From: Axinella damicornis
Lineage: Eukaryota > Porifera > Demospongiae > Axinellida > Axinellidae
Reading direction: 5' to 3'
Length of the DNA stretch: 64,000 nt
Assembly: GCA_963931865.1 (NCBI GenBank)
Contig: OZ007508.1
Span: 4,395,206-4,459,205 of the forward strand
Within the stretch, counting starts at the first letter, position 1, and every line of letters starts with the position of its first letter. The notes beneath the pieces were generated by a model that was not told where the DNA came from, did no database searches, and saw only the letters and a program-made list of their open reading frames with translations. The translations under genes and the position numbers were made by a program. Below, one piece after another: positions 12,569 through 54,954 of the stretch.

Positions 12569-12638
12569 CGACAGGTCCTGGGTTAGTTTCGATGTCCCCA
12601 CTGAGGACCAACAGCAGTAGAATCACTCCCACCACCAT
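12569..12638 (-). CDS. NLR-A leader and 2A ribosome-skipping exon
   Basis: From ATG (12638-12636, A at -3 and G at +4) the exon encodes MVVGVILLLLVLSG followed by DIETNPGP and Val, ending G|gtgagt in phase 1. DxExNPGP is the invariant core of 2A-type sequences, at which ribosomes skip the Gly-Pro bond. The Leu-rich stretch before it looks like a signal peptide. Splicing to the Death-domain exon gives ...NPGP-VGQLSLEDL. The frame stays open upstream of this Met, but the paralogs show that this Met is the better start. Confidence 0.85.
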
Positions 12639-12771
12639 CCTCCCCAGACCAGAGGGGACACCGAGACCAGGGCTGGGGGAAACACGACGGACTCTGGAGT
12701 GGGACGAGGAGGACCGGATGTTCACCTGTACTCCTCTATTGTTCTGCAGCACTAATGCTGGTGGCACAGTG

Positions 12772-12942
12772 TCAATGTGTAGTGGCAGCATCAAGGGGGG
12801 GTGTCCAATGGCAGTGAGACAGGGGTGAAGATGTTCCGTGGGGTTGATGTGGTGTACGTGTGGTGTTCAGCGACACGACCAGCACTAACAGTGGCAACAT
12901 GAAGATACACACAGTCACTAGGAGGGCGTGGCCTGGCACCAT
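12772..12942 (-). CDS. Upstream ORF in the NLR-A leader exon
   Basis: Begins MVPGHALLVTVCIFMLPLLV and runs 56 codons, ending before the 2A Met in a different frame. A shorter upstream ORF with the same start is present in NLR-C and NLR-F. It is hydrophobic and could be a translational regulator, or simply a remnant of an older leader. Confidence 0.35.
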   Translation of the reverse strand: MVPGHALLVTVCIFMLPLLVLVVSLNTTRTPHQPHGTSSPLSHCHWTPPLDAATTH

Positions 12943-13607
12943 GTGAAAGTGGTAGTGGATATGGTGAGGTTGTCGTACCCTTTCATTCACATGCTGTGAT
13001 GAACCTTCATCTGCATTGGGAATAAATCAGTGCACATATGCTTTACGTCACACATAGATCACATCATACATACACACACTCTAGCCATTGTACTGTACAT
13101 TGAAGGCTATAAGTTCTAAAAGTGTCCCTGTGCGTGATACTGGAAGCGATCCGCACTGGGTTTGGTTGGGTCTGGGACCGAGACTAGTCTAGCAAGTCTG
13201 CAAAGCACCCCACCTTGGCATGTAACGAAGGTGGAGCTAATAATAGAGGTCATAGTTCAAATGCAACTGAAGTCTCCAGCACATCTAGGGAGAACATAGC
13301 CTCGTTCCCAGGCCAAACAACACACAATTTGCTGCTCACGGACATCGTAGTACAGCAGTACAAACACTGTAATTGTGACATTTGCTGTAATTGTCCCCGC
13401 TTTTAGTTCCTCCATAAATATAGTGGCCAAACGTTCTTTCCCCTGCTAACGTCTGGCCCAAGAGACTAGTAATGGAGGCATTCCCCACCTTGGACATAAT
13501 CCCCCTTGGAAACAAGGTCCTGACACTGGACACGGAGTATAACCTGAGGCACAGATAATTTATTGGACTGGGTCACACCACACCCCAAACAACACCAATT
13601 TGCTCAC

Positions 13608-13680
13608 AATTTCTCAACTGCTGTCCAACTCTTAATCTAGCAACGCTGGTCGGCAGATCAGATACAGGTAGCTGTGTCTA
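13608..13680 (-). promoter_or_regulatory. NLR-A 5'UTR exon
   Basis: Contains the block shared by all five genes (ATCTGATCTGCCGACCAGCG...TTGGACAGCAGTTGAGAAATT) ending at a gtgagc donor at 13607. It carries no coding sequence. The conserved upstream promoter block seen in B, C, E and F is absent on this strand beyond about 13680. Confidence 0.6.
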
Positions 13681-14290
13681 GGCACGCGCACATTCTGCGG
13701 CATATGCTTTGGGCAAAATTTGTCTGTGAAGCATAATGCTGGCTAGACTTGCAGGCCAGACTGTTTGGGGGTGTGGCGGGAAGAGGCCACGGAATATGTA
13801 GCCTTCGCGTGTGGGCCTGGGAACGAGGCTACGAATATGGCCCAGAGACACCAGACTCTTTTTCCCCTCCGCGCTTCCGGCCACACCCCCAAACAGGAAA
13901 AAGAGTCTGACTAAAATTTAATGCTGGCAATGGCATAGGTGAAGCAGCAATGGGAGCTAGCCTCCCTCTACCCACCTAGTCTTCGCTTTCTCCAGCACAG
14001 GATCATATTCCATGCTTGGGAAAAATTCGAGGGGCTAGCTGGCTAGACTACTACCCACCTGATTGCTTGCTGTTCAGCTCTGTTCTTTTCACTGCATCTC
14101 AGAGACTGAGAGTAACAGTTAGACATCATTTGGTTTTGCTGCATGTTGCATGTTGTGTAGCAAGTTGCACTTCGACCTCTAATAGCCCCGCCCTCTATTG
14201 ACGTGCATCGCGAGCGTGGTTTCGTTCCGGATCCGTTCCAGTATCAAACATTCTCCGAGACCACACAAACAGTTCGACTGGACACTGTAA
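13681..14290. promoter_or_regulatory. Divergent intergenic region between NLR-A and NLR-B
   Basis: Between the two head-to-head 5'UTR exons. 13748-13895 is an imperfect palindrome (CTGTTTGGGGGTGTGGC / GCCACACCCCCAAACAG) with a 33-bp TAGCCTTCG palindrome (13799-13831) inside it. 13985-14290 is the conserved plus-strand promoter block shared with NLR-E 42360-42665 (98-99% by eye), including TTGCACTTCGACCTCTAATA, a GC box CCCCGCCC and GAGCGTGGTTTCGTTCCGG. It probably drives NLR-B, or did before the element at 14291 was inserted. Confidence 0.6.
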
Positions 14291-15653
14291 TATGGCAAAC
14301 CATCTGTTTCAAAAGTGCGCTAAAAAACGAGGGGCGCGCTGTACGTCTCTCTGCACGTGCACAAAAATCCCAACCGAAGTGGTTTTAGCGCGCGCTAAAA
14401 CCAACCGAATTGGTTTTAGCGCGCGCACGTGCAGTGATGCGTACAGCACGCCCCTCGTTTTTTAGCGCACTTTTGAAACAGATGGTTTGCCATAGTTTGC
14501 CAGTGTTGCTGACACTCGCTTAACAAGCTTTCGGCACAAGTTAGCATCACATCCACATCCTCTATCTTGACTTAGTAATTATTGGTATTTGGGTATTGGG
14601 TATCTGTATCTTGTTTCTAAGTCTTTTGTTCTTTTAGCGCGTGATGGCATATAGCTCGCGATGGTTTGTTTTAGCGCGCGATAGAACCACTTGGTTTTGT
14701 TTTAGCGCGCGATAGAACCGCTCGGTTTGTTTTAGCGCACGATAGGTTTGTTTTAGCGCGCGATAGAACCACTTGGTTGTGTTTTAGCGCGCGATAGAAC
14801 CACTAGGTTTGTGTTAGCGCGCGATAGAACCACTTGGTTGTGTTCTAGCGCGCGATAGAACCACTAGGTTTGTTTTACAGCGCGACAGAACCACTTAGTT
14901 TTGTTTTAGCGCGCGATAGAACCACTTGGTTTTGTTTTAGCGCGCGATAGAACCACTTGGTTTTGCATTAGCGCCCGATAGAACCACTTCGTTGTGTTCT
15001 AGCGCGCGATAGACCCACTTGGCTTTGTGTTAGCGCGCAATAGAACCACTTGGTTGTGTTCTAGCGCGCGATAGAACCACTAAGTTTGTTTTACAGCGCG
15101 ATAGAACCACTTGGTTTTGTTTTAGCGCGCGATAGAACCACTTGGTTTTGTTTTAGCGCGCGATAGAACCACTTGGTTTTGCATTAGCGCCCGATAGAAC
15201 CACTTCGTTGTGTTCTAGCGCGCGATAGACCCACTTGGCTTTGTGTTAGCGCGCAATAGAACCACTTGGTTGTGTTCTAGCGCGCGATAGAACCACTAAG
15301 TTTGTTTTACAGCGCGATAGAACCACTTGGTTTTGTTTTAGCGCGCGATAGAACCACTTGGTTTTGTTTTAGCGCGCGATAGAACCACTTGTTTTTGCAT
15401 TAGCGCCCGATCGAACCACTTCGTTGTGTTCTAGCGCGCGATAGACCCACTTGGCTTTGTGTTAGCGCGTGATAGAACCTGTGTTAGCGCGCGATAAAAC
15501 ACTTCGGTTTGTTTAGCGCGCGATAAAACCGACTTCGGTTGCTTTTAGCGCGCGCTGAAACAACTTCGGTTGGGATTTTTGTGCACGTGCAGAGAGGCAT
15601 ACAGCACGCCCCTCGTTTTTTAGCGCACTTTTGAAACAGATGGTTTGCCATAT
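14291..15653. mobile_element. Foldback element with 31-bp array inside the NLR-B promoter
   Basis: Begins TATGGCAAACCATCTGTTTC and ends with its reverse complement; a second inverted terminus is at about 14440-14494, giving a 200-bp hairpin unit followed by the array. NLR-E is continuous across this point (gacactgttacccttttctctatgg at 42664-42688), so the 1.36 kb is an insertion. The ends contain AAAAAACGAGGGGCG...TGTAC and GCACGTGCA motifs. Confidence 0.85.
14630..15565 (+). repeat. Tandem array, about 31-bp unit
   Basis: About 30 copies of TTTTAGCGCGCGATAGAACC followed by ACTTGGTTTTG, with a higher-order pattern: a block of five or six variants (CATTAGCGCCC, CTAGCGCGCG, TACAGCGCG) repeats about three times at 14860-15470. 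Its GCGCGC core makes it very CpG-rich. It is internal to the 14291-15653 element. Confidence 0.9.
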
Positions 15654-15753
15654 TCTCTATGGACTGAGCGAGTTGTTGGACACAAATTGTAGGACTTCTG
15701 TCTGCCGTCGCATCGCCCGCGTTGCTTGTGAAGTTGGACAGCAGTTGAGAATT
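15654..15753 (+). promoter_or_regulatory. NLR-B 5'UTR exon
   Basis: Non-coding first exon matching NLR-E 42682-42779 (CTATGGACTGAGCGAGTTG...TTGGACAGCAGTTGAGAATT) ending at donor gtaagg. The insertion lies immediately upstream. The transcription start is not defined by the sequence. Confidence 0.6.
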
Positions 15754-16372
15754 GTAAGGTAAAAATTACTTATTGTTTTGGGGGGTGGGGCACAATTTGC
15801 TGACTCGGCTTGGGGCTCACAGTGTCCCAGTCAGTTCTTGCTGTAGCCTATTTCAGTGTGTGAGGGGTCTATGCCTCCAGTAATTATAACTGTTCAATTC
15901 CTAGTTGTGTCACTGGTGGCCGAACTAATAATTCGTGTCTAGAGGTGAGGACCTTGTTTCCAAGGGTGATCATGTCCGGTTAGGTTGCTCCTTTGTTTAA
16001 CTGGAATACATAAGCCCAAGATGAACAAAGCGACAAAATATTATGCACACGACCGCCCACCGGTGCCTCATTGGCCATGACTGCTCTTAAGCTTTGTTCT
16101 TCCTAGCCTCATTCCGAGGCCTGTCCCACCTCCAGTTTTATTGCTTGCAATATACTTTTGCTATACTGTTCTGTGCACCAGCTGTGCAGTAGTGCAGGAT
16201 GCACTGGAAATGACTTTGTTACACCGTACGAGCTGCATGTTGGGTTGTAATGATACCACACTTGTGATGGTCTGGTGCATGAAAGTAGCTATGTTACGTT
16301 CAAATATCTCATCCCACTCCAGAATCCATCCCAGCCCTGGTCTCAGACAGTGTCCCCTCTGGTCTGGGGAGG

Positions 16373-16442
16373 ATGGTGGTGGGAGTGATTCTACTGTTGT
16401 TGGTCCTGAGTGGGGACGTTGAGACGAACCCAGGACCTGTTG
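16373..16442 (+). CDS. NLR-B leader and 2A exon
   Basis: ATG in strong context (A at -3, G at +4), MVVGVILLLLVLSG, then DVETNPGP-V and a G|gtgagt donor (phase 1). Just upstream, NLR-B has a 4-nt insertion (tctc-agac-agtg, about 16344) that breaks the frame open in other copies. The 70-nt ATG-to-donor segment is untouched, which argues that this Met is the real initiator. The product is predicted to be a 22-residue leader ending in Gly, released by skipping, with the receptor starting at Pro. Confidence 0.85.
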
Positions 16443-18104: not shown

Positions 18105-18461
18105 GGCAACTTACACTGGACGACCTGAGTGAAGTGAGGGGAGCCTTGTACGAGGCCCGTGCCAAATGGTACCATATCGGAGTTGAACTGAAGCTGTCGG
18201 TAGGAACACTGAATGCCATCAGATCAGAGTTTACTGACAAGAACGACTGCAACACTGAGATGTGCAGTCACTGGTTGAGATGTATCGACCCCCGTCCCTC
18301 CTGGGAGGCTCTGACTAAAGCTCTGGAGAGTCCTCCTGTGGGGGAGGGACACCTGGCCCAGCAGCTGAGGGACAAGTACTGCCCAGGAAGAGAGGAAGCG
18401 ATACCGCACATCTACTCCACCCCAGGACCATCACCCCCTGGTGCTCCCCCCACCTCACAAG
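18105..18461 (+). CDS. NLR-B Death-domain exon
   Basis: Acceptor cccctcag, donor gtagct, 357 nt, phase 1 on both sides. Encodes GQLTLDDLSEVRGALYEAR, WYHIGVELKLSVGTLNAI, CSHWLRCIDPRPSWEALTKA, VGEGHLAQQLRDKYC and then a Pro-rich tail (TPGPSPPGAPPTSQ). This is a Death-fold domain with the usual Trp in helix 5 and a GVELKLSVGTL helix 2-3 region. After 2A skipping, the mature chain would begin Pro-Val-Gly-Gln-Leu-Thr-Leu, placing the Death domain at the extreme N-terminus. Confidence 0.88.
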
Positions 18462-19155: not shown

Positions 19156-19305
19156 TACCACATGGTGAGTCACCTTTGACCTCTGCTGTAACCTCACCCC
19201 CTCCCCCATCCCCCATCACCTACGACTCTGGTATCCCTCCTGCCGTGGTACCACCCACCTCACAGCTGACCACACCCCCTCACCATCCCCTACCAGGACA
19301 CACCG
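19156..19305 (+). CDS. NLR-B linker exon
   Basis: Acceptor ccctgcag, donor gtatgt, 150 nt, phase 1 on both sides. Encodes VPHGESPLTSAVTSPPPPSP... to PTSQLTTPPHHPLPGHTG, a Pro/Thr/Ser spacer between the Death domain and the helical domain. Homologs: C 29448-29588 and E 45005-45154. Confidence 0.8.
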
Positions 19306-19653: not shown

Positions 19654-22600
19654 GTTCCACTGCACTACGTAGCGTGGCCGACCAAGTTGAATACTTTGAG
19701 ACTGAATTTGCCAATCTTGTCGACAAAGCTTGTCACGACGTGAGGAAAAGAGATCTGGAACCTTCCATCTTCCTTTCCCGAGTTACCACCCTGCGAGTAT
19801 CCGACCGCATCCAGCATCGAAGCTTCATCCTGGAGAATTTGATAAACATTCCACCACCAGTAACATTCGAGAAGATCTGGTCGCGTCTCACAATTTATTG
19901 GGACTTTATGAACTACGGACTTCTAGAACATGTCATCAACAAATTGGGAGGCGAAGACTTGAAACATCAGATGCAGGTCTATGTGCAGGAATTGTCCACA
20001 TTCAAGGGTAGAACTCGGCTCTGTGACTTCATTGATAGCTGGCCGTGCAAAGATAACAGGCCACCAGAAGAGGAACTAAGGAAAATAGTCATCAAAATGA
20101 AACACGAATGGACCCAATGCACACTGCAAGATGTGGAGTCATACAAAATGGCTCTCATTCACAAGTTCTTCCTACCAGAATTTGAAATAATCCTCCAGAA
20201 TGCTAACAGGGGGTGTGTCTGTGTCACGTGGCTCACCTCTCCCTCCACTGCCACACTACTGCAGCAGAACCTGGCAAACATTGAGACGGAGTTCTTCAAG
20301 GAGCACAGCATTGATGCAGTGACCGTCGATGGTCAGGACATCTACCTCACCCCTGTCAAGAAGTACGGTGGCTACCTGAGAGAGCTGTACACCTCAGAGA
20401 GACCGCTAGTGGGTGTTGGCCTTCCTACCCCAACTGAAAAGCTCCTCCCCTTCAAGTTAGCCAGGATCGAGAAGGAGAAAATTGACCTGCAACATGCAGA
20501 TCACTTCACTAAGAGATACATACGTGGAGACCTAGACGATGTGGACTATTCTAATGGTATCGTTTACAAGAAGTCTCCAATGAAGTTATCAGAACTTAAT
20601 TGTCACGGGCGTGATTCCCACCAAGTTGTTCTGCTTGAAGGTGCCCCTGGGGTGGGCAAGACGACCTTCAGCTGGGAGTTCTGCAAGAAGTGGGGCAAGG
20701 GTGAGATTCTGCAGGACCATTCCCTGCTCCTCCTCCTCCCACTGCGGGACAACAACCTGAAAGAAGCCAAGACCCTCTCAGACCTCTTCTACCACCCAAA
20801 CCCAGAACTCCAGCAAGCAGTGGTCCAAGAGGTCACCAGTAACCAGGGCAAGGGAGTGGCCATCTGGCTCGAGGCATGGGACGAACTGGATCACAAACCA
20901 CGAGAGGAGACCTCCGTGTTCCTGGACCTCATCCATGGAAGAATCCTACCCCTTGCAACTGTGTTTGTCACAAGCAGGCCTTGGGCCAGTGAGCACCTCA
21001 GAGAGAAGTGTGGACATCGAATCTCCCAGCACGTTGAGATCCTGGCATCCGCGAAAGACCAGATCGAGCATATTATCAGCAAAGCTGAAGCCGAAGCACA
21101 GCCTAGCTCCTTCGCAACCAAGTTCACTGACTACCTCTCGTCTAATCCAGCGATCAGGGCAGCCATGTACACACCTGTCACAGCAAAGATGTCGGCAGAA
21201 GTGTTTGCCTGGAGCCAGCTCACTGAGTCACCCCCTCCCACCACTATGACAGAACTGTTCACCACCTTCACCCTCAAGACCCTAGTGGGATACCTCTCAA
21301 CACACCCACTGTACCGCAAACAGCAGTTGAAGGTGACTAGCTTCAGTGACCTCCCCCCAGATGTGCACAAGCAATTCCTGGGCTTGTGCAAAATGGCCTA
21401 CAAGGGAATACTGAACAGGCAACAGCTGGTTTTCTCTGCCGCACACCTTCCCACTGGATTCTCATCACTCGGTCTAATGCAGGAGGTCCCACAAGTGTAC
21501 ACACGAGGCAAAGCATCCTCCTACCATTTCACCCACCTAACACTTCAGGAATTTCTATCTGCCGTTCACATCTCACAACTCCCCACAGACGAGCAGACAA
21601 GAGTGATTCAAGATTATCTTGATAGTGGCCACTTCAAAATGACTATGAGATTTGTCGCTGGACTCACAAAGTTGGCAAATGTACCTCCAGAAATCACCAG
21701 GAATTTGAGGGATACTGATCTCATCTTAGCCACTAGTAGGCTGAGGGAGGATAATAGTAATCTGACGTTACTTCATTGGCTGTTTGAGTGTAAGGACACT
21801 TCAGTGACTGCCAGAACTCTGGGTTCAGGTCAGATGGTTGTCAGTTCACACTACTCCTGGACTCCCCTGGATTACTATGTGACAGGACATGGCATCTCCC
21901 ATTCCAACTGCCCCTGGGGACTGAACTTTTGTGTCTCTTCCATTGATGATGAGAACTTTGAGCTGTTTTGTCAGGGATGCGCTACCCCTGGGGGAACTGG
22001 ATGTGAGGGCTACATCTCATATGCCAGCTTCAGTTACAATAACATCACCTCCAAACACATGCAATCATTTGTGAGCATCCCCCCACACATCCTACAGGGT
22101 ATGAGATTGCTAGACCTGAATGGTAACAAACTGGACGGGAGGGCATGTGACCTGCTGGCCAAGGTAGTACCATCAATGTCCAGGTTAGAGGAGCTTTGGC
22201 TCGTTGACAACCCGATAGGAAGTGGTGGTGCTGTGGAGGTGATCAAGTCACTCTGTGGCAGTGGAGTGAAACGACTGGAGTTGTACAACACTGGGATTGG
22301 GGGACCAGATTGTGAGGCATTGTCAGAACTGCTTCAGTCCACTCACTCACTTGAACGGCTTCACATTGAGCAGAACTTGTCCACAGAGAGTGTAGCCAGC
22401 ATCATCACTGGACTCAGTCACAACAATTCTCTGAGAGAACTGAACATTTCAGACTCCCACTTTAGCACGGCGAATACACTACACTTGTCATCACTACTGA
22501 GAGAACACTCGAAGTGCACACTAACATCATTGAGGTTACGAAACTGCCACATCAGCAGTGAAGGTGCAGTGGAACTGGCAACAGCACTCTGCAAGAACAC

Positions 22601-23018
22601 TACACTCAGAGAACTGTACTTGAGTGGTAACCCCATTGGAGAGCATGTGGAGGGAGTGACTGCAGTAGCTACAATGTTAGTAGAGAACAAATCACTGACA
22701 CAGTTGGAGTTACGAGGCTGCCACATCAGTGGACATGGTGCTGGTGAACTGGCGGCCGCACTCTCCAAGAACTCAACTCTGCAAACTCTGAACCTGGACT
22801 GTAACCCCATTGGTGTGGAGGGAGCCTTCTCAATGTCGGACATGTTACTGCACAACGCATCACTAAGATGGCTATACATGCGTGATGACTCGGTCGGGGA
22901 AGAGGGGGTTCACCAACTCATGCACAGTGTCAAGTACAAGCAAACATTGAAGGGACTGTGGCTGCCAGGGAAGTACAAGTCGGAAACCAGTGACGACAGA
23001 ATTCATTGGTTATGGTGA
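19654..23018 (+). CDS. NLR-B helical-NACHT-LRR terminal exon
   Basis: Acceptor ccattcag, then GSTALRSVADQVEYFETEF..., 1120 codons to TGA. The exon set 70+357+150+3365 nt gives an intact 1313-residue frame. Order (exon residues): 10-255 unnamed helical domain (RLCDFIDSWPC; HKFFLPEFEIIL); NACHT with Walker A GAPGVGKTT at about 328, Walker B-like AIWLEAWDELD at about 400, VTSRPWASEHL sensor-1 region at about 435; post-NACHT helices (PAIRAAMYTP; LTESPPPTTM; FTHLTLQEFLSAVHIS); about ten ribonuclease-inhibitor-type LRRs from about 815 (LEELWLVDNPIGSGGAVEV). NACHT proteins are ATP-driven oligomerising receptors, and LRRs normally sense ligand or autoinhibit. Known: the 2A/Death/NACHT/LRR layout occurs in invertebrate NLRs. 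Inferred: this is a cytosolic or dual-targeted immune sensor. It appears intact. Confidence 0.93.
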
Positions 23019-27737: not shown

Positions 27738-27807
27738 ATGGTGGTGGGAGTGATTCTACTGTTGTTGGTCCTCAGTGGGGACATTGAGACTAACCCAGGA
27801 CCTGTCG
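27738..27807 (+). CDS. NLR-C leader and 2A exon
   Basis: MVVGVILLLLVLSG then DIETNPGP-V, ending G|gtgagt (phase 1). Context gggaggATGG. Same length as the other four copies. The frame also continues upstream to ATG 27588, but B lacks that frame and F lacks an upstream ATG. Confidence 0.85.
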
Positions 27808-28931: not shown

Positions 28932-29288
28932 GGCAACTTACACTGGACGACCTGAGTGAAGTGAGGGGAGCCTTGTACGAGGCCCGTGCCAAATGGTACC
29001 ATATCGGAGTTGAACTGAAGCTGTCGGTAGGAACACTGAATGCCATCAGATCAGAGTTTACTGACAAGAACGACTGCAACACTGAGATGTGTAGTCACTG
29101 GCTGAGGCGTATCGACCCCCGTCCCTCCTGGGAGGCTCTGACTAAAGCTCTGGAGAGTCCTCCTGTGGGGGAGGGACACCTGGCCCAGCAGCTGAGGGAC
29201 AAGTACTGCCCAGGAAGGGAGGAAACGATACTCCACGTCTACCCCACCCCTGGACCATCACCCCCTGGTGCTCCCCTCACCTCACAAG
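28932..29288 (+). CDS. NLR-C Death-domain exon
   Basis: 357 nt, acceptor cccctcag, donor gtagct. Nearly identical to the B and E copies (GQLTLDDLSEVRGALYEAR; CSHWLRRIDPRPSWEALTKA). Such high identity among B, C, E and F, against the diverged A copy, suggests recent duplication or conversion. Confidence 0.88.
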
Positions 29289-31187: not shown

Positions 31188-32450
31188 GTATGTCACTTTT
31201 AGTGTGAGTATACTTGTCTCAGAGCCGAGAGATGATTTTGTGATTGCTGCAACCACACCTAGCTCTGAATGCAGTGTTTGGAAGTGTCGTGTATCTCAGA
31301 CTATCTCTGCAGTGACCGCAACACAGCCAAATTGATTTTCCACCATCATTATGTAGTCATATAGGAAGGACTCTCATAACAATTTCTGCTGTGCACAGCA
31401 CTACCATTGCTTTCTGTTTCCTTGTCATCTTTATAAATACCGTAAATTTATGCATTCTTTTACCTGGACACATGTCTATAACTTTCGTAGCAACCTCATG
31501 AAATGACACGTACCTGTATTTGATATGGGTACCTGTTGACCGGAAGGAAAAATCTAATTAGTGTGTATATGGGCATCTGTACGTTATGTCAGCGATTGCT
31601 GTGAAATTGTCTCGAAAACGTCATTGAGATGGAAATAGGCATTTATGCACTGCTAATGCACTGCTAATAATGTAATATATTTAGGGCAAGAGCTATGCAT
31701 GTTTGGGAGACACTGCAGGCTGCTTTCGCTGCTAGAGGAGTGAGTTGCTCCATTTTCCCAGTGTACTTTAGCCTCTAGCAGGAGATGTGCGGCAAATGAC
31801 GTGTTCATTTACAGCTTTCGCCCTCGATACTCATGTCTTATAGCTGTACCCTGAAGCTGAAAGTGCAATTCACATGTGCTCAGAATTTATAGATGTATGT
31901 TGGAGGGGCCAAATTATTCGTGCAGCCGTGCTCTGCAGGAAGTTCGTCTTTGAATAAGTGGGCACAGATCTGAAGTCCAGCGCCGACTTAAATTTGTGCT
32001 GGGCTGGGTACGAATTGGCATGTACACAGGTGCTTGTAACCTTAAACGTGGGATGTTTAAAAGATAGCAGTGATGGTATGGAAATGGAGCCTTAGGGCCA
32101 TACCATGAGTAAGTTATGGGGCGGAGTTCACATGTGCAGCATTGTCTTTCAGAATGCTATGAAGGCACATATCTCTGGAACGGAAGAGAGTTCCAGACTG
32201 GGTGGGTTGCAAGCGTACGTAAGTACTTGCACTGTACCAAGAATCACTTCATTATTAGTGGTGGAGAGACAAGAGTTTGAAAAAGCTTAAAAATGCGCAA
32301 TTTGAAGGTGATCCCTTTTCTCAAATCCAGTCACATGTCTCCTACTGCTACTGTCAGTGCAGTGTGCACACACTACCCAGTATTCATGGGGCCTGTGTGT
32401 GGCCACAAAAATTACTGAACAATTAAGTAAATGTCCACATTCCATTTTAG
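31188..32450 (+). other. NLR-C last intron
   Basis: 1.26 kb, AT-richer than the surroundings. I saw no gene, transposon end or tandem array in it. Confidence 0.5.
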
Positions 32451-35400
32451 GTTCCACAGAGCCACATGGTGTGGAAAGCCAAGTCAAGTATTTTGAGGAT
32501 GAATTTGGTGGACTTGTCGATAAAGCCTACCAGGAAGTAAGAGAAATGGAACCTTCCACCTTCCTTGCCCGTGTTACGTACCTGCCTATGTCTTCCAGAC
32601 TTCAGCATCGGAGCTTCATTGAGACGAAATTGACGGACATTCCACCTCCAGTAACATTTGTCAAGATATGGTCCATTCTGAACCTTTATTGGGGCTTTCT
32701 GAACTATGGACTCCTGGAACATGCGATAAGCATCTTTGGAAGTGACGACCTAAAACATCAGCTGCAGGAGTATGTGGACAAACTTTCTGCATTCAAAAGA
32801 ACCACTCGACTCTGTGACTTTCTTGACAGCTGGCCGTGCAAAGATGACAGACCATCGGAAGAGCAATTAAAGAAAATAGTTGCTAAAATGCGTCACAAAT
32901 GGACCCAATGCACACTGCAAGATGTGGAGTCATTCAAGAAAGCTCTCATTCACAAGTTCTTCCTACCAGAATTTGACATAATTCTCCAGAAGGCTGAGAG
33001 GGGGTGTGTCTGTGTCACATGGCTCACCTCTCCCTCCACTGCCACACTACTGCAGCAGAACCTGGCAAACATTGAGACAGAGTTCTTCAAGGAGCACAGC
33101 ATTGATGCAGTGACCGTCGATGGTCAGGACATCTACCTCACCCCTGTCAAGAAGTACGGTGGCTACCTGAGAGAGCTGTACACCTCCAAGAGACCACTAG
33201 TGGGTGTTGGCCCTCCTACCCCAACTGAAAAGCTCCTCCCCTTCAAGTTAGCCAGGATCGAGAAGGAGATAATCGACCTGCAACATGCAGATCACTTCAC
33301 TAAGAGATACATACGTGGAGACCTAGACGATGTGGACTATTCTAAAGGTATCGTTTACAAGAAGTCTCCAATTAAGTTAGCAGAACTTGATTGTCAGGGG
33401 CGTCATTCCCAACAAGTGGTTCTGATTGAAGGTGCCCCTGGGGTGGGCAAAACAACCTTCAGCTGGGAGTTCTGCAAGAAGTGGGGCAAGGGTGAGATTC
33501 TGCAGGACCATTCCCTGCTCCTCCTCCTCCCACTGCGGGACAACAACCTGAAAGAGGCCAAGACCCTCTCAGACCTCTTCTACCACCCAAACCAAGAGCT
33601 CCAGCAAGCAGTGGTCCAAGAGGTCACCAGTCACCAGGGCAAGGGAGTGGCCATCTGGCTGGAGGCATGGGACGAACTCGATCACAAACCACGAGAGCAG
33701 GTGTCCGTGTTCCTGGACCTCATCCATGGAAGAATCCTACCCTTTGCAACTGTGTTTGTCACGAGCAGGCCTTGGGCCAGTGAGCACCTCAGAGAAAAGT
33801 GTGGACATCGAATCTCCCAGCACGTAGAGATCCTGGCATCAGCTAAAGACCAGATTGAGCACCATGTAAGCAAAGCTGAAGCCGAAGCACAACCTAGTTC
33901 CTTCGCCACCAAGTTCACCGACTATCTCTCATCTAATCCCGCAATCAGGGCAGCCATGTACACACCTGTCACAGCAAAAATGTCAGCAGAAGTGTTCACC
34001 TGGAGCCAGCTCACTGAGTCACCCCCTCCCACCACTATGACAGAACTATTCACCACCTTCACCCTCAAGACCCTAGTGGGATACCTCTCAACACACCCAC
34101 TGTACCACAAACAGCAGTTGAAGGTGACTAGCTTCAGTGACCTCCCCCCAGATGTGTACAAACAATTCCTGGGCCTGTGTAGAATGGCCTACGAGGGAAT
34201 ACTGAACAGGCAACAGCTGGTTTTCTCTGCCACACACCTTCCCACTGGATTCTCACCACTCGGTCTAATGCAGGAGGTCCCACAAGTGTACACACAAGTT
34301 AAAGCAGCCTCATACCATTTCACCCACCTAACACTTCAGGAATTTTTATCTGCCGTTCATATCTCACAACTCCCCACAGACGAACAGACGAAACTGATTC
34401 AAGATCATCTTGGTAGTGGCCACTTGAAAGTGACTCTGAGATTTGTCGCTGGACTGACGAAGTTGGCAAGCGTACCTCCAGAAATCACTAGGAAGCTGAG
34501 GAAGGATGATGATAATAATCTGACTTTACTTCATTGGCTGTTTGAGTGTAAATACACTTCAGTGACTACCAGAACTCTGGGTTCAGATGAGATGGTTGTC
34601 AGGTCACACTACTCCTGGACTCCCCTGGATTACTATGTGACAGGACATGTCGTCTCACATTCCAACTGCCCCTGGAGACTGAACGTTTTCACTTCTTCCA
34701 TTGATGATGAGAAGTTTGAGCTGTTTTGTCAGGGATGTGCTACCCCTGGGGGAACTGGATGTGAGGGCTACATCTCATATGCCGACTTCATGCGCAATGA
34801 CATCACCTCCAAACACATGCCATCGTTTGTGAGCATCCCCCCACACATCCTACAGGGCATGAGAATGCTAAACCTGGGTTATAACAAACTGGATTGGAGG
34901 GCGTGTGACCTGCTGGCCAAGGTAGTACCATCAATGTCAAGGTTAGAGGATCTTTGGCTCAGTCACAACCCAATAGGAAGTGGTGGTGCTGTGGAGGTGA
35001 TCAAGTCATTCTGTGGCAATGGAGTGAAACAACTGTTGCTGCATGACACTGGGATTGGGGGACCAGATTGTGAGGCTTTGTCAGAACTGCTTCAGTCCAC
35101 TCACTCACTTGAACGACTTGATATTGACCAGAACAACTTGTCCTCAGAGAGTGTAGCCAGCATCATCACTGGACTCAGTCACAACAATTCTCTGAGAACA
35201 CTGGACATTGCAGACTCTCACTTTAGTATGGCAAATACACTACACTTGTCATCACTACTGAGAGAACACTCAAAGTGCACACTAACATCGTTGAGGTTAC
35301 GAAACTGCCACATCAGCAGTGAAGGTGCAGTGGAACTGGCAACAGCACTCTGCAAGAACACTACACTCAGAGAACTGGACTTGAGTGGTAACCCCATTGG

Positions 35401-35779
35401 AGAGCATGTGGAGGGAGTGACTGCAGTAGCCACAATGTTAGTAGAGAACAAGTCACGGACACGGTTGGGGTTAGAAGACTGCCACATCAGTGGACAGGGT
35501 GCTGGTGAACTGGCGTCTGCACTCTGCAAGAACTCAACTCTGCAATATCTGAACCTAGACCGTAACCCCATTGGTGTGGAGGGAGCCTCCTCAATGTCGG
35601 ACATGCTACAGTACAACACGTCACTAACATGGCTATATATGTGTGATGACTCAGTCGGGGAAGAGGGGGTTTGCCAACTCATGAGCAGTGTCAAGTACAA
35701 CCAGACATTGGAGAGATTGTGGCTGCCAAGGAAGTATGAGTCAGCAACCAGTGACCACAGAATTCATTGGTTAAGATGA
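32451..35779 (+). CDS. NLR-C helical-NACHT-LRR terminal exon
   Basis: Acceptor ttttag, GSTEPHGVESQVKYFEDEF..., 1108 codons to TGA. Exons 70+357+141+63+108+3329 sum to 1355 residues in frame. Helical domain as in B but diverged at the 5' end (DEFGGLVDKAYQEV), then almost identical from CTLQDVESFKKA onward. Walker A GAPGVGKTT (nt about 33431), AIWLEAWDELD, SRPWASEHL, post-NACHT helices, and a full LRR set including SGNPIGEHVEGVTAVATMLV. The LRR surface carries C-specific changes (NLGYNKLDWRACD, RLGLEDCHISGQG). Intact. The diverged first 400 nt next to near-identical NACHT suggests gene conversion in the ATPase region. Confidence 0.93.
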
Positions 35780-43693: not shown

Positions 43694-43763
43694 ATGGTGG
43701 TGGGAGTGATTCTACTGTTGTTGGTCCTGAGTGGGGACATTGAGACGAACCCAGGACCTGTCG
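43694..43763 (+). CDS. NLR-E leader and 2A exon
   Basis: MVVGVILLLLVLSG, DIETNPGP-V, G|gtgagt. Identical in length and frame to the other copies. Confidence 0.85.
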
Positions 43764-44430: not shown

Positions 44431-44786
44431 GGCAACTTACACTGGACGACCTGAGTGAAGTGAGGGGAGCCTTGTACGAGGCCCGTGCCAAATGGTACCA
44501 TATCGGAGTTGAACTGAAGCTGTCGGTAGGAACACTGAATGCCATCAGATCAGAGTTTACTGACAAGAATGACTGCAACACTGAGATGTGCAGTCACTGG
44601 TTGAGACGTATCGACCCCCGTCCCTCCTGGGAAGCTCTGACTAAAGCTCTGGAGAGTCCTCCTGTGGGGGAGGGACACCTGGCCCAGCAGCTGAGGGACA
44701 AGTACTGCCCAGGAAGAGAGGAAACGATACCCACAACTACTCCACCCCAGGACCATCACCCCCTGGTGCTCCTCCCACCTCACAAG
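44431..44786 (+). CDS. NLR-E Death-domain exon with 1-nt deletion
   Basis: Acceptor cccctcag, donor gtagtt, 356 nt instead of 357. The Death domain itself is intact (GQLTLDDLSEVRG... to LRDKYCPGREET), but one C is lost after ATACCC (about 44731; others have ATACCCC), shifting the Pro-rich tail. Splicing then reads TGA at 45026-45028 in the next exon. Predicted product: 149 codons, that is leader/2A plus a bare Death domain. A sequencing or assembly error in a C run is the main alternative. Confidence 0.85.
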
Positions 44787-45578: not shown

Positions 45579-48500
45579 GTTCCACTATGCTACGCAGTGT
45601 GGCAGATCAAGTTGAATACTTTGAGACTGAATTTGCCAATCTTGTTGACAAAGCTTGTCACGACGTGAGGAAAAGAGATCTGGAACCTTCCATCTTCCTT
45701 TCCCGAGTTACCACACTGCGAGTATCCGACCGCACCGAGCATCGAAGCTTCATCCTGGAGAATTTGATAAACATTCCACCACCAGTAACGTTCGAGAAGA
45801 TCTGGTCGCGTCTCACCATTTATTGGGACTTTATGAACTATGGACTTCTGGAACATGTCATCAGCAAATTGGGAGGCGAAGACTTGAAGCATCAGATGCA
45901 GGTCTATGTGCAGAAACTGTCCACATTCAAGAGCAGAACTCGGCTCTGTGACTTCATTGATAGCTGGCCGTGCAAAGATGACAGGCCACCAGAAGAGGAA
46001 CTAAGGAAAGTAGTCATCAAAATGAAACACGAATGGACCCAATGCACACTGCAAGATGTGGAGTCATTCAAAATGGCTCTCATTCACAAGTTCTTCCTAC
46101 CAGAATTCGACTTAATCCTCCAGAATGCTACCAGGGGGTGTGTCTGTGTCACGTGGCTCACCTCTCCCTCCACTGCCACACTACTGCAGCAGAACCTGGC
46201 AAACATTGAAACGGAGTTCTTCAAGGAGCACAGCATTGATGCAGTGACCATCGATGGTCAGGACATCTACCTCACCCCTGTCAAGAAGTACGGTAGCTAC
46301 CTGAGGGAGCTGTACACCTCGGAGAGACCGCTAGTGGGTGTTGGCCCTCCTACCCCAACTGAAAAGCTCCTCCCCTTCAAGTTAGCCAGGATCGAGAAGG
46401 AGAAAATTGACCTACAACATGCAGATCACTTCACTAAGGGATACATACGTGGAGACCTAGACGATGTGGACTATTCTAAAGGTATCGTTTACAAGAAGTC
46501 TCCAATGAAGTTATCAGAACTTGATTGTCGTGCACACGCTTCCCACCAAGTAGTTCTGCTTGAAGGTGCCCCTGGGGTGGGCAAGACGACCTTCAGCTGG
46601 GAGTTCTGCAAGAAGTGGGGCAAGGGTGAGATTCTGCAGGACCATTCCCTGCTCCTCCTCCTCCCACTGCGGGACAACAACCCGAAAGAGGCCAAGACCC
46701 TCTCAGACCTCTTCTACCACCCAAACGCAGAGCTCCAGCAAGCAGTGGTCCAAGAGGTCACCAATAACCAGGGCAAGGGAGTGGCCATCTGGCTGGAAGC
46801 ATGGGATGAACTCGATGACAAACCACGAGAGGAGGCCTCTGTGTTCCTGGACCTCGTCCATGGAAGAATCCTACCCCTTGCAACTGTGTTTGTCACAAGC
46901 AGGCCTTGGGCCAGTGAGCACCTTAGAGAGAAGTGTGGCCATCGAATCTCCCAGCACATAGAGATCGTGGCATCCGCGAAAGATCAGATCGAGCATATTG
47001 TCAGTAAAGTTGACGTTGAAGCACAACCGAGTTCCTTCGCCACCAAGTTCATCAACTATCTCTCGTGTAATCCAGCGATCAGGGCAGCCATGTACACACC
47101 TGTCACAGCGAAGATGTCAGCAGAAGTGTTTGCCTGGAGCCAGCTCACTGAGTCACCCCCTCCCACCACTATGACAGAACTGTTCACCACCTTCACCCTC
47201 AAGACCCTAGTGGGATACCTCTCCACATACCCACTGTACCGCAAACAACAGTTGAAGGTGACTAGCTTCAGTGACCTCCCCTCAGCTGTGTGCAAGCAAT
47301 TCCTGGGCCTGTGCAGAGTGGCCTACGAGGGAATACTGAACAGGCAACAGCTGGTTTTCTCTGCCGCACACCTTCCCACTGGATTCTCATCACTCGGTCT
47401 AATGCAGGAGGTCCCACAAGTGTACACACAAGGCAAAGCATCCTCATACCATTTCACCCACCTAACACTTCAGGAATTTCTATCTGCCGTTCACATCTCA
47501 CAACTCCCCACTGACGAGCAGACAAAACTGATTCAAGATCATCTTGATAGTGGCCACTTGAAAGTGACTCTGAGATTTGTCGCTGGACTCACAAAGTTAG
47601 CAAACGTACCTCCAGAAATCACTAGGAAGCTGAGGAAGGATGATGATAATAATCTGACTTTACTTCATTGGCTGTTTGAGTGTAAAGACACTTCAGTGAC
47701 TACCAGAACTCTGGGTTCAGATGAGATGGTTGTCAGTTCACACTACTCCTGGACTCCCCTGGATTACTATGTGACAGGACATGTCATCTCACATTCCAAC
47801 TGCCCCTGGAAACTGAATTTTGACTACTCTTCCATTGCTGAGAAGTTTGAGCTGTTTTGTCAGGGATGCGCTACCCCTGGGGGAACTGGATGTGAGGGCT
47901 ACATCTCATATGCCAACTTCAGTGACAATGACATCACCTCCAAACACATGCAATCATTTGTGAGCATCCCCCCACACATCCTACAGGGCATGAGAGAGCT
48001 ACACCTGAGTGGTAACAAACTGGATGGGAGGGCGTGTAACCTGCTGGCCAAGGTAGTACCATCAATGTCCGGGTTAGAGGAGCTTTGGCTCAGCCGCAAC
48101 CCGATAGAAAGTGGTGGTGCTGTGGAGGTGATCAAGTCGCTCTGTGGCAGTGGAGTGAAACAACTGTGGCTGTACAACACTGGGATTGGGGGACCAGATT
48201 GTGAGGCATTGTCAGAACTGCTTCAGTCTACTCACTCACTTGAATTGCTTCACATTGGCCAGAACAACTTGTCCACAGAGAGTGTAGCCAGCATCATCAC
48301 TGGACTCAGTCACAACTATTCTCTGAGAGAACTGGCCATTTCAGATTCTCACTTTAGCACGGCAAATACAGTACACTTGTCATCACTACTGAGAGAACAC
48401 TCAAAGTGCACACTGACATCATTGGAGTTACGAGACTGCCACATCAGCAGTGAAGGTGCAGTGGAACTGGCAACAGCACTCTGCAAGAACTCAACACTGC

Positions 48501-48733
48501 AAGATCTGGACCTAGACCGTAACCCCATTGGTGTGGAGGGAGCCTCCTCAATGTCGGACATGTTACAGCACAACGCATCACTAAGATTGCTATACATGTG
48601 TGATGACTCAGTCGGGGAAGAGGGGGTTCGCCTACTCGTGAACAGTGTCAAGTACAACCAGGCATTGCAGGGGCTGTGGCTGCCAGGGAAGTACAAGTCA
48701 GCAACCAGTGACCACAGAATTCGTTGGTTATGA
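45579..48733 (+). CDS. NLR-E helical-NACHT-LRR terminal exon
   Basis: Acceptor ccattcag, GSTMLRSVADQVEYFETEF..., 1050 codons to TGA, internally intact. Walker A GAPGVGKTT (nt about 46565), AIWLEAWDELDDK, SRPWASEHL. Two LRRs (about 58 residues) present in B and C are missing: ELATALCKN joins directly to STLQDLDLDRNPIG, an in-frame deletion between repeats. Because of the upstream 1-nt deletion it is out of frame with the leader in the simplest splice form; the combined exons (70+356+150+3155) are not divisible by three. It could be reached by skipping the Death-domain exon, since 70+150+3155 = 3375 is in frame. Confidence 0.88.
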
Positions 48734-49840: not shown

Positions 49841-49841
49841 A

Positions 49842-49870
49842 CAACCATGCACACTCAATCACACACACAG

Positions 49871-49942: not shown

Positions 49943-49944
<2 letters not shown>

Positions 49945-50029
49945 CCTTTGGTAGTTTGGTAGTTTTCACATGTGAGCTCGAGAACAGCTGAAGTACGTAC
50001 ATGAACTGCAGCTACTTCCCCCAGTCTCA

Positions 50030-50112: not shown

Positions 50113-50391
50113 TAGGAACACGTACCAGTGAGTCCAAACACAGCAATTCATATATCATGCAGAGCTGGCATGCACTTGTTCTCATGTTGCATACACAGAT
50201 CTACATGACACTGTGTTGTGTGGCTATACCACTTGAGCTACAACCACTGGAGCTGGTGGTGGAGCCTGACAACCAGGGTAGTGTCACACTAGGATGTGAA
50301 GTCTTGTCACAGGGTGGTCACTCTCAGCTACAACCACAGGATGGGACAACATATACTGCATGCATGAGTGGGTGTGGCTTATACACCAGAT

Positions 50392-50448
50392 TAGCCTCAT
50401 ACCTAGCCCCCACCTGCCGCACGTGGGCGGGGCCTGGGTATGACGCTA
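50392..50448. mobile_element. 57-bp palindromic element, exact 9-bp duplication
   Basis: TAGCCTCATACCTAGCCCCC...GGGGCCTGGGTATGACGCTA flanked by acaccagat on both sides (50383-50391, 50449-50457). Confidence 0.92.
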
Positions 50449-50509
50449 ACACCAGATTGCTCCACTTACTACTGGGAGTCACAAGTCACACGGCCACAGG
50501 AGATTTAAG

Positions 50510-52560: not shown

Positions 52561-52574
52561 CTACAGAACTAATG

Positions 52575-52869
52575 CAATTCCCCCCACCTGATTGCTTGTT
52601 GTTCAGTTCTGTTCTTCTCAGACATCCTTCGGATCCGCTGCCTTTGCCACAGCATATATAGTCACTCTCGATCTGCTGCAAGCTTGCACTTCGACCTCCT
52701 GCAAGCTTGCACTTCGACCTCTAATAGCCCCGCCCTTCTTTTGCTGTGCAAACGAGCTTCCGTTCCGTCCCAGTATGAAACAAGAAGAGAGACTCGTGAT
52801 CGATAGTCTGTCATCTGATCTGCCGACCAGTGTTGCTAAGATTAAGAGTTGGACAGCAGTTGCGAAATT
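52575..52869 (+). promoter_or_regulatory. NLR-F promoter block and 5'UTR exon
   Basis: CACCTGATTGCTTGTTGTTC, two tandem copies of TGCAAGCTTGCACTTCGACC (52676-52715), CCCCGCCC, CCGTTCCGTCCCAGTATGAAAC; 5'UTR exon ending at 52869 (GGACAGCAGTTGCGAAATT) with donor gtaagc. Confidence 0.6.
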
Positions 52870-53685
52870 GTAAGCTGGTGTGATATGACCCAATTTGTAC
52901 ACTTACAAGCCTGTCCTAATAAATCTGTGCCCCCGGTTATACTGTGTGTCCAGTATGTCCACCTCCATTACGTTAGACGTTAGAACATTTGACCACTGTT
53001 GACAGGTTTCTAATAAAATGTGACATCATAGCAAATATCACAAGGAAATTATGCCATTACAATGTTTGTACTGCCATACTACATATGACGTCCGTGAGGT
53101 ATGGGGGGTGATCAGCAAACAAAAAATAGTTTGTGAGTTGTTTGGCATGGGAACAAGGCTATTTTCTCCCTAGATGTGCTTGAGACTTCAGTTGCATTTG
53201 AACTAGCTATTACCTTCTTTCCATGCCAAGGTGGGGTGCTTTGCAGGCTTGTTAGACTCGTCTCGGTCCCAGACCCAACCAACCCCAGCGCGGATTGCAT
53301 GCTTCCAGTATCACACACGGGGAACTTACAGCTTTCAATGCACAATACAATAGCTATAGAGTGTGTGTTGCGTAAGGTTTGTGTGATGTGCATAGCTACA
53401 TGCAGTTTGCAATGGTGCAGAGCTGAAAATAACATTTTGTGTATTGGTTGGTCAATTGTCCAGTCAAATTTGATTTTGCCAGGCCATTGAGTTGCTTTGG
53501 TTGTCCGGTTATAAAAGTGGTGTAGCTATAATGCATTACTTTTAGGCAGACTATAAGCAGAAAGATAGAACAAAAGGCAGCTAAGCAGAACTACCTAATC
53601 AGAACTCCCAGGAAAAGAGGTAGAGTAGTAACATACACAAGTCAAAATGGGCAATGTGTATGCAACACATCCTGAACCAAGATGT

Positions 53686-54010
53686 TCAGGGGCGGATCCA
53701 GGAAAATATATAAGAGGGTACTCTACTTCAACGGGGGGGGGGGGGGGGGTGCCTCAAAGCCAGTATCAAGCTAGAGGTGCTTTTGAGGCTGAGACCATGC
53801 GAAGCGCAAAACGTTTTTACCATCATATTTTCAGTTGTCAGGGCTCTCATGGCAGCTTGGTGCTTTCCACTGCCCTGCTACTGCTTTCTGGTTCTGTGCC
53901 ATGTCTTTTCACAGCATCTTGATTGTGCAGTCAGCATAGTAAGCTAGGGGCGTGCCTATAGGTGTACTCGGTATCAGTCAGTGAAGGGGGGGGGGGGGGG
54001 GGGGGGGGCT
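53686..54010. mobile_element. Degenerate DNA transposon with poly-G tracts
   Basis: CAGGGGCGGATCCAGGA at 53686 is a terminus typical of hAT-like MITEs; the opposite end may be the related GGGGCGTGCCTATAGG region at about 53947. G runs of 17-18 lie at about 53735 and 53988. Boundaries uncertain. Confidence 0.4.
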
Positions 54011-54583
54011 GATGTTGTTTACTCCCACATACACAAACATGCGTATCAATCAAAAGTGGGAAAAAACAGCTGGCTGATTCAACCCATGTCGTCATTCGTG
54101 TCACACTAGGGAAAATGAAAATGGTGAAAAAAGGAATTGGCTGATTCAAATCGTGCATGTTCTTTGCGTAAGGACATGGTTGGCAACTTCTGCCAACTTG
54201 CTCCTCCTACTGCATGTGGAAGCCCCTCATATGCTAATTAGAGGTGCAGACACTAACTCTATAAAGTGGCCAGTCATGTAGTCATTTGAGGGCCCTTTCA
54301 GTTGCTTGCATGGAAATTGACCGATGGCCGACTGTTATTCAGCTCTAATTACGTATGTGCCAGACCTGTGAGGGTCTGGTGGACGAAAGTAGTCCACCTA
54401 TGATACATATTTCCATGCTTTCATTTTTTTTTTGCTCTCCGTTTTTTTTTTCATTGTCTTTTTGAGCTAATATAGCCCTCTATGTGTGACAAAGCATACC
54501 TGCACGGATTTATTGGTGAAGGTTCATCACAACATGTGAATGAAAGGGTATGACAACCTCACCATATCCACTACCATATTCAC

Positions 54584-54655
54584 ATGGTGTCAGGCCACGC
54601 CCTCCTAGTGACTGGGCATATCTTCATGTTGCCACTGTTAGTGCTGTCCGTGTAG
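54584..54655 (+). CDS. Upstream ORF in NLR-F leader
   Basis: 23 codons, MVSGHALLVTGHIFMLPLLV..., TAG; same length and position as in NLR-C. Confidence 0.35.
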   Translation: MVSGHALLVTGHIFMLPLLVLSV

Positions 54656-54884
54656 CTGAACACCACACGTACACCACATCAACCCCACAGAAATTCTTCA
54701 CCCCTGTCTCACTGCCAATGGACACTCCCACTTGAAGCTGCCACACCTCGACACTGTGCCACCAGCATTAGTGCTGCAGAACAATAGAGGAGTACAGTTG
54801 AACATCAGGTCCTCCTCGTCCCACTCCAGAGTCTGTCGTGTTACCCCCAGCCCTGGTCTCGGTGTCCCCTCTGGTCTGGGGAGG

Positions 54885-54954
54885 ATGGTGGTGGGAGTGA
54901 TTCTACTGTTGTTAGTCCTGAGTGGGGACGTGGAAACTAACCCGGGACCTGTCG
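54885..54954 (+). CDS. NLR-F leader and 2A exon
   Basis: MVVGVILLLLVLSG, DVETNPGP-V, G|gtgagt. There is no in-frame ATG upstream within the open frame, so this Met is the only plausible start for the 2A frame. Confidence 0.88.

Follow-up and report, generated by a model that had tools for sequence, protein, structure and literature searches.

A 64,000-nucleotide stretch of Axinella damicornis DNA (the window) carries five NLR-like genes whose first exon encodes a short hydrophobic leader ending in a 2A-like motif. The locus raises the question of whether these leaders are StopGo (2A) elements and whether, as a preliminary description had proposed, each gene thereby supplies receptor to two compartments.

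Leader exons and gene models in the window

Five 70-nt exons encoding D(I/V)ETNPGP-V had been described in the window, and all five were found at those positions and on those strands, each 70 nt long, running from an ATG to a G|gtgag donor (all five inspected) and encoding MVVGVILLLLVLSG-D(I/V)ETNPGP-V (Table 1). Six-frame translation of the window shows no other NPGP motif. The start codons lie in a strong Kozak context, as previously noted, with GGGAGG-ATG-G (A at -3, G at +4) identical in all five. The octapeptide (D/G/C/N)(V/I)ExNPGP is present in 5/5 leaders, directly preceded in each by the hexapeptide LLVLSG, which on reading belongs to the LLLLSG-like class described by Li 2026 (PMC12846837). 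The identification of a DxExNPGP skipping motif is thus upheld, the window core belonging to the described StopGo class. RNA folding of the five leader exons was inconsistent, with z-scores from 0.48 to -2.34.

The proposed phase-1 join to a Death exon is supported by genomic signals in all five genes, where the phase-1 donor is followed, 594-1662 nt downstream of the leader, by a cccctcag acceptor and an exon reading GQL.... No transcript or protein supporting the leader-Death join was found, and searches with joined proteins returned single-exon frames or nothing. Three leader-bearing frames (P0199-P0201) carry residues of the C4, C4, and C9 leaders, respectively, and are probably the same loci. 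The NPGP motif was absent from all 120 NLR homologues listed (of 550). A search of viral contigs for the core gave no matches and one of bacterial genomes gave a single match, L176, in a binned genome, which reads as a non-LTR element.

Assignment of the Death domain comes from a widened alignment. Of its 11 members, eight match Pfam Death with an E value of 1 or lower (3.8e-7 for the best), and its profile has FADD death domains as its best matches in the PDB (1.9e-6). Taken singly, the gene B Death exon has no Pfam match and that of gene A lies under the cut-off; a profile of 29 close Death-exon copies alone found no Death match in the PDB. An AlphaFold model of the Death exon was set aside for its poor confidence (mean pLDDT 45).

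Both a NACHT domain and a Walker A motif are present in genes B, C, and D and neither in A and E, so that the description of all five as NLR-family genes holds for the former three and goes too far for the latter two. The C-terminal LRRs are likewise over the Pfam cut-off in B, C, and D, with weak matches in A and E, and the LRR part of gene A is spread over two overlapping frames. The differing length of the gene D Death exon means that its frame is broken unless it is spliced differently. Gene B provides the sole complete joined model, with four exons, 1313 amino acids, and no internal stops.

Table 1. Features of the five genes in the window, in window coordinates
Feature	Position	Strand	Basis
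Gene A leader exon, MVVGVILLLLVLSGDIETNPGPV	12569..12638	-	phase-1 donor gtgagt
Gene A Death exon, 354 nt	11621..11974	-	Pfam Death E 0.0085, below cut-off
Gene A main region, weak NOD2_WH, NLRC4_HD2, and LRR; without NACHT or Walker A	7070..10034	-	
Gene B leader exon, MVVGVILLLLVLSGDVETNPGPV	16373..16442	+	NPGP motif and splice signals
Gene B Death exon, 357 nt	18105..18461	+	widened profile, splice signals
Gene B proline-rich linker exon	19156..19305	+	four-exon model
Gene B main exon, NACHT (GAPGVGKT) and LRRs	19654..23018	+	Pfam, Walker A
Gene C leader exon, MVVGVILLLLVLSGDIETNPGPV	27738..27807	+	NPGP motif and splice signals
Gene C Death exon, 357 nt	28932..29288	+	splice signals
Gene C main open frame, NACHT and LRRs	32312..35779	+	open frame; acceptor not located
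Gene D leader exon, MVVGVILLLLVLSGDIETNPGPV	43694..43763	+	NPGP motif and splice signals
Gene D Death exon, 356 nt, length out of register with the other copies	44431..44786	+	
Gene D main exon, NACHT and LRRs	45579..48733	+	Pfam, Walker A
Gene E leader exon, MVVGVILLLLVLSGDVETNPGPV	54885..54954	+	NPGP motif and splice signals
Gene E Death exon, 357 nt	55736..56092	+	splice signals
Gene E main open frame, weak LRR, WH, and HD2; without NACHT or Walker A	57728..60463	+	

Leader families across the genome

A search of 226 Mb for D(V/I)E-x-NPGP revealed 149 cores, with none for the reversed-pattern control; the core pattern is not due to chance. On our own sorting by letters, made after reading all 149, 120 fall into seven leader families (F1-F7), with T, M, I, S, or R at x. 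The best nearby donor was in phase 1 for 120/120 family cores. Of 13 retroelement-type cores examined, ten had any candidate donor, and in two of these it was in phase 1. Death exons were found downstream of sampled members in six of the seven families, using a profile built from an alignment (A2) of five F1, three F6, two F2, and one F3 sequences, from which F5 and F7 are absent. The Death domains of F2, F3, and F6 are 22-34% identical to those of F1. The NACHT family also matches in 11 of 14 control genomes, above cut-off in three; the 103 NACHT places used here were all above cut-off.

For 43 of the 51 Death exons most similar to those of the window, a same-strand core lies upstream at a distance of up to 8 kb; a core on the opposite strand was seen for two and a downstream core for one. 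Since 8/51 close Death exons are without a core within 8 kb and 7/85 distant ones have one, the leader is not obligatory. The leader is lost or shifted in 5/50 F1 cores, and within the sequence examined 10/45 intact F1 leaders are preceded by an in-frame Met (the remaining 35 are not), so that other starts are possible there.

Constraint on the core

To avoid selecting for the feature being measured, 57 leaders were picked by their first 24 nt alone, ignoring the core. An in-frame (D/N)(V/I)ExNPGP was present in 54, with two frame-shifted and one broken. Within the 54, residues E, N, P, G, and P are invariant while synonymous sites vary, and the only amino-acid changes in the core, at position 16 (I/V), at position 18 (x), and one D-to-N, are all compatible with the motif. 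The pN/pS of the core was 0.139 in these leaders, compared with 0.461 in 17 Death-exon copies chosen from 30 Death loci. The prefix-picked set was used for this estimate because a further set of 45 leaders (pN/pS 0.155) had been picked by the core, which in these cannot vary freely. A neutral rate from introns was dropped, being inflated by gaps. The pattern of selection fits StopGo recoding.

Hydrophobicity of the leaders

In place of signal-peptide prediction, hydrophobicity was compared in the residues preceding the core, to a maximum of 40 and irrespective of where translation actually starts. The best 11-residue mean of the window leader was 3.63, compared with 3.19 for a reporter-tested sea-urchin NLR leader, which was also exceeded by 43/50 F1, 9/9 F4, and 10/17 F6 leaders and by 0/13 retroelement-type cores. 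All 13 retroelement-type cores were in turn exceeded by 45/50 F1, 9/9 F4, 17/17 F6, and 7/8 F5 leaders. The medians of F2 (1.60), F3 (2.05), and F7 (1.16) lie below the retroelement median of 2.38, and 0/36 of their leaders are over the retroelement maximum. As these three families keep the core with weak hydrophobicity, it is StopGo, and not ER targeting, that appears common to all. The hydrophobic stretch is nevertheless present in the window leader, which could act as a signal sequence as had been suggested. The gene B protein has no KDEL-like C terminus, and nowhere else does it match the hydrophobicity of the leader; its nine N-glycosylation sequons, close to the 6.8 expected from composition, favour neither side.

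Discussion

The dual-pool idea is not new, having been published together with reporter tests of a single NLR leader from the sea urchin (Roulston 2016, PMC4981915). In that study, cell-free skipping was put, as a qualitative estimate, at ∼80%, the wild-type leader was mainly cytosolic, exocytic targeting appeared in HeLa and plant cells once mutation blocked skipping, and 2A-like leaders occur on 85 of 241 Strongylocentrotus purpuratus NLRs. The statement that such N termini occur in invertebrate NLRs is correct for the sea urchin; for sponges no paper was found in our literature search, outside which the likely relevant Rao 2025, Yuen 2014, and Odon 2013 fell, and one sponge paper uses "2A-like" in another sense. 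The urchin leader (SpNLR2A) is a close analogue of the window leader. Both are N-terminal, place a hydrophobic run before SGDVETNPGP (urchin letters), and head a substantial part of a large family of NLRs that combine Death, NACHT, and LRR (in the window, genes B, C, and D). They differ in length to the last P (22 residues here, 26 in SpNLR2A) and in the letters upstream of SGD, and the window leader is a separate 70-nt phase-1 exon, the two being compared on leader sequence and not exon layout. Unlike SpNLR2A, the leaders here form several families, some weakly hydrophobic, in another phylum, and their StopGo activity is predicted.

Other systems are less close. The L-rich class of viral StopGo in Li 2026 (PMC12846837) shares (D/N)(V/I)ExNPGP and, upstream of it, a hexapeptide of the LLLLSG type with G next to the D, and its motif-6 example was active in vitro; viral elements lie between polyprotein parts, those here at the N terminus of cellular genes, in which StopGo is described as rare. 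The Dysidea avara NLRD study (PMC12909245) reports comparable Death-NACHT-LRR expansions, with transmembrane segments in some NLRs, and its main text does not use signal peptide, 2A-like, NPGP, StopGo, skipping, ribosom-, or recoding. The genome studied here also contains retroelement-type cores, which share the core and have no consistent phase-1 donor and, at the two loci read, no Death exon downstream. Non-LTR retrotransposons are reportedly a further source of 2A sequences.

Taking together the exon and its splice signals, the Death domain downstream, the conserved core, and the pattern of constraint, the leader exons look functional, as a real StopGo module, and we consider it likely that each is an N-terminal StopGo element which phase-1 splicing connects to the Death exon of a Death-NLR or NLR-like gene. 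With Gly21 in the ribosomal P site, a 21-residue chain, with only 14 residues ahead of the core and ending LLLLVLSG-D(I/V)ETNPG, would stall in the exit tunnel; most ribosomes would release this 21-mer and resume at Pro22, yielding a cytosolic receptor that starts Pro-Val-Gly. As skipping would be decided with the entire leader inside the tunnel, it would precede SRP binding; the hydrophobic leader would emerge from the tunnel on read-through chains alone, and these could be taken into the ER. Strongly hydrophobic families, including that of the window, would then have a large pool of receptor in the cytosol and a small one in the ER or secreted. In all families selection would be for StopGo, with any useful ER pool an optional and hypothetical addition.

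What such an element is for is less certain. Selection may retain partial skipping precisely to supply both a cytosolic and an ER or secreted pool, an explanation with a real chance of being right, if short of an even one. The reporter precedent and the hydrophobicity of the window, F1, F4, and F6 leaders relative to the urchin leader, a level that no retroelement-type core reaches, argue for it; the weakly hydrophobic F2, F3, and F7 and the features lacking from gene B argue against it. A NACHT ATPase, moreover, is expected to function in the cytosol. The claim of two receptor pools is thus plausible for the window genes by analogy with the urchin leader and seems not to extend to a general role. 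Somewhat less probable is that StopGo links receptor output to release and elongation factors, such that translation altered by virus or stress would shift the amount of NLR and the hydrophobic stretch would serve the exit tunnel only. The retention of the core, and not of hydrophobicity, in all seven families agrees with this, and stress control of StopGo was proposed in the Discussion of Roulston 2016 (PMC4981915), but the F1 hydrophobic stretch is longer than the six-residue upstream motif described for StopGo.

Two further readings would deny StopGo a function here, and both are very improbable. A plain signal peptide with an incidental NPGP, already disfavoured, would account for the hydrophobic N terminus and for possible small-residue cleavage sites near SG, but not for the invariant core residues amid varying synonymous sites or for the NPGP kept by poorly hydrophobic leaders; loss of NPGP with hydrophobicity kept should then be common and was observed in 1/57. 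That the leaders are functionless relics of 2A-bearing retroelements, or dead leader exons, is suggested by the 13/149 cores that precede a cysteine-rich, PHD-like stretch (by letters; PHD confirmed in one) and the 11 that lie inside a repeat array with reverse-transcriptase pieces. It is opposed by a pN/pS far under 1, by the Death exons downstream, and by the invariable phase-1 donors. A broader proposal, that StopGo is a general and perhaps ancient N-terminal phase-1 module of animal Death-NLRs, tying receptor output to the state of translation, with ER targeting a later option in hydrophobic families, is speculative and on balance doubtful.

The mechanism is known and the instance new and large, the leader type recurring in at least six gene families here. 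With 120 phase-1 StopGo leader exons, in families of which the sampled members mostly have Death exons downstream, this genome would use StopGo in its own genes on a very large scale. The mechanism of the sea urchin would then also operate in an animal lineage deeply separate from it, making common descent versus convergence testable. The natural variants of the leaders, at x and in strong versus weak hydrophobicity, offer a ready series for relating skipping to localisation.

Window leader exons and gene structure

All five 70-nt leader exons claimed in the preliminary description were recovered at exactly the positions reported, with a common leader in which position 16 is Ile or Val, and inspection of the sequence of genes A–E revealed an identical Kozak context and the donor gtgagt in each. 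The proposed phase-1 join agrees with the genomic splice signals, as 5/5 leaders reach an exon starting (G)QL at a distance of 594–1662 nt. Gene B, for which alone among the window genes the full exon join was made, encodes 1313 residues with zero internal stops and phase 1 at every junction, in the order leader, Death, proline-rich linker, an unnamed region, NACHT, and LRRs. The assignment of all five genes to the NLR family was supported for B, C, and D, where NACHT was found, and is too strong for A and E, which are without NACHT or Walker A and gave weak matches to winged-helix, HD2, and LRR only. Genes A and E retain their leader and Death exon as well as the post-NACHT parts, with the NACHT core missing, and could possibly encode NACHT-less NLR-like proteins or decoys.

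The gene B Death exon alone gave no Death match in a Pfam scan. With members of other families added, Pfam Death was matched by 8 of 11 sequences at E values up to 1 (best 3.8e-7), and the top PDB matches of the widened profile were FADD death domains (1.9e-6).

Coordinates of features in the window and elsewhere in the assembly
Feature	Position	Strand	Remark
Gene A leader exon	12569-12638	-	
Gene A main region	7070-10034	-	NACHT core missing
Gene B leader exon	16373-16442	+	part of joined four-exon frame
Gene B Death exon	18105-18461	+	part of joined four-exon frame
Gene B proline-rich linker exon	19156-19305	+	part of joined four-exon frame
Gene B last exon	19654-23018	+	part of joined four-exon frame
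Gene C leader exon	27738-27807	+	
Gene D leader exon	43694-43763	+	
Gene E leader exon	54885-54954	+	
Start-codon island (example)	54860-54910		
Gene E main open frame	57728-60463	+	NACHT core missing
Aldehyde dehydrogenase gene part	61740-62240	-	Pfam Aldedh 3.7e-8 on 51-aa piece
Leader array (G000; L031-L041)	C1:5419195-5425713	one strand	eleven F4-like 2A leaders
DIETNPGP without clear leader	C4:5654950, 8528789, 8754460		each 11-17 kb from opposite-strand F7 leader
Leaderless Death exons (L011-L014)	C8:8.76-8.91 Mb		191-194 bits
Mitochondrial-looking contig (L181)	C120		41 kb

Leader families across the genome

A search of the whole assembly (226 Mb, 120 contigs) for the StopGo core gave 149 matches, compared with 0 for a reversed control; the flanks of all 149 were read and the cores then sorted into families, F1 being that of the window.

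Core classes (n = 149) and medians of best 11-residue hydrophobicity
Class	Cores	Median
F1	50	3.63
F2	21	1.60
F3	8	2.05
F4	9	3.27
F5	8	2.84
F6	17	3.33
F7	7	1.16
C1 array	11	
Retroelement-type	13	2.38 (range 1.25-2.78)
Other	5	

In F1–F7 the best donor within 21 nt was phase 1 in 120/120 cases. Retroelement-type cores, which precede a cysteine-rich, PHD-like stretch (PHD confirmed by Pfam in the single member scanned), had a candidate donor in 10/13, two of those ten being phase 1; the array cores had a phase-1 donor in 10/11 and no donor in one, and four of the five other cores had a candidate donor, three of them phase 1.

The C1 repeat array, mostly with ~690 bp spacing, contains a reverse-transcriptase piece (Pfam RVT_1) and protease-like pieces recognised by eye; the leader exon was seemingly captured by a Ty3/gypsy-like tandem array, the element type being judged by eye. 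Contig C120 carries a cytochrome b frame readable with TGA as Trp, followed by ATP synthase subunit c (atp9) and tRNAs; its spacer sequence is seemingly repeated, and it is large for an animal mitochondrial genome. The presence of atp9 on a mitochondrial contig using this code suggests, short of proof, a demosponge source.

Association of leaders with Death and NACHT

Among 34 loci, most with ~1.5 kb of downstream sequence, a same-strand downstream Death exon was found in 6/6 F6, 3/5 F2, 1/1 F3, and 2/7 F1 loci, and in none of the 11 array, two retroelement-type, one other, and one F5 loci; a Death exon upstream, or on the reverse strand in the downstream part, was found at 0/34. Further stretches revealed Death at 0.00036 (Pfam, under its cut-off) with NACHT behind it for F5, Death at two F7 loci (the single scanned one above the Pfam cut-off), and, for F4, no Death exon within 3.5 kb. 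F4 leaders have same-strand NACHT 10–18 kb downstream in seven cases. Applying a simple rule located a phase-1 Death acceptor at 11 of 12 loci (the nearest candidate in 10) and none at L178; that of L060 sits 56 nt upstream and is perhaps not the real one. Additional other-phase candidates lie further upstream at 4/12 loci, in two phases at L058.

From the Death side, the best 150 of 815 candidates were scored and their positions compared with those of the 149 cores plus nine variants. A same-strand core lay within 8 kb upstream of 43/51 exons at ≥140 bits (opposite strand 2, downstream 1), 8/14 at 85–140 bits (0 and 0), and 7/85 at 40–85 bits (0 and 3). For NACHT (103 scored places out of 243 candidates), 20/103 had a same-strand core within 20 kb upstream, with 0 on the opposite strand and 4 downstream. 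Four near-F1 Death exons on C8, one of them interrupted by a stop codon, lack any 2A core in the 8 kb upstream of them and are natural leaderless copies.

Selection on leader and core

Of the 50 F1 cores, 45 belong to intact leaders and five to lost or shifted ones. Leaders were also picked independently of the core, from the first 24 nt with ≤3 mismatches, giving 57 places (control 0): 45 with the canonical core in frame, nine with an in-frame variant (DIEMNPGP 5; DVEINPGP 3, one starting ATA; NVEINPGP 1), two frame-shifted with the core kept, and one broken. Across the 54 in-frame leaders the core codons had pS 0.433 and pN 0.060; amino-acid changes were confined to positions 16 (I/V), 18 (the free x), and a single D-to-N at 15, with Glu17, Asn19, Pro20, Gly21, and Pro22 invariant. 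Asn at the Asp position belongs to the expanded motif of Li 2026 (PMC12846837). pN/pS was 0.273 for leader codons 2–14 (45 leaders picked by core) and 0.461 for the Death exon (17 copies chosen from 30 Death loci).

The 45 F1 leaders also display an island of nucleotide conservation spanning roughly positions −25 to +26 relative to the start codon, third-position diversity being 0.044 in codons 2–8 versus 0.316 in core codons 15–22. This island is possibly a promoter or a TISU-like initiation element.

Signal sequence and StopGo

The tested urchin leader, whose residues were derived by translating the primer sequence given in Roulston 2016 (PMC4981915), has a best 11-residue hydrophobicity of 3.19, which is exceeded by 43/50 F1, 9/9 F4, and 10/17 F6 leaders and by none in F2, F3, F5, or F7. 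By this comparison the window leader is an equally good predicted signal-sequence candidate, matching the reporter-tested urchin leader. Three families retain the StopGo core without a comparable hydrophobic stretch; start codons are uncertain in F2, F3, F4, and F7, and some F2 copies are without an obvious Met.

The ribosome exit tunnel accommodates some 30–40 residues, and the leader would be 21 residues long at the moment the bond is made or skipped. Consequently, skipping would be settled before SRP can see the leader, and the ER share would be at most the read-through share. For one urchin leader, Roulston 2016 (PMC4981915) qualitatively estimated skipping at ~80% in a cell-free system and found the product mainly cytosolic in cells; by analogy, skipping of the same order would be expected here.

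The same paper bears out the sea-urchin precedent for 2A-like NLR N-termini named in the preliminary description, a case cited again by Li 2026 (PMC12846837) and a 2024 picornavirus paper, and citing literature credits Rao 2025 with a StopGo motif search of viral and cellular proteomes. No paper on 2A leaders of sponge NLRs was found in the literature searched; the one sponge paper using the word 2A-like refers to another protein. The mechanism class is thus already published in urchin, and the sponge leaders are a large instance of it, new within the literature searched. Taken together, the evidence points to StopGo, and not to signal activity, as the property that the families have in common and that is under selection.
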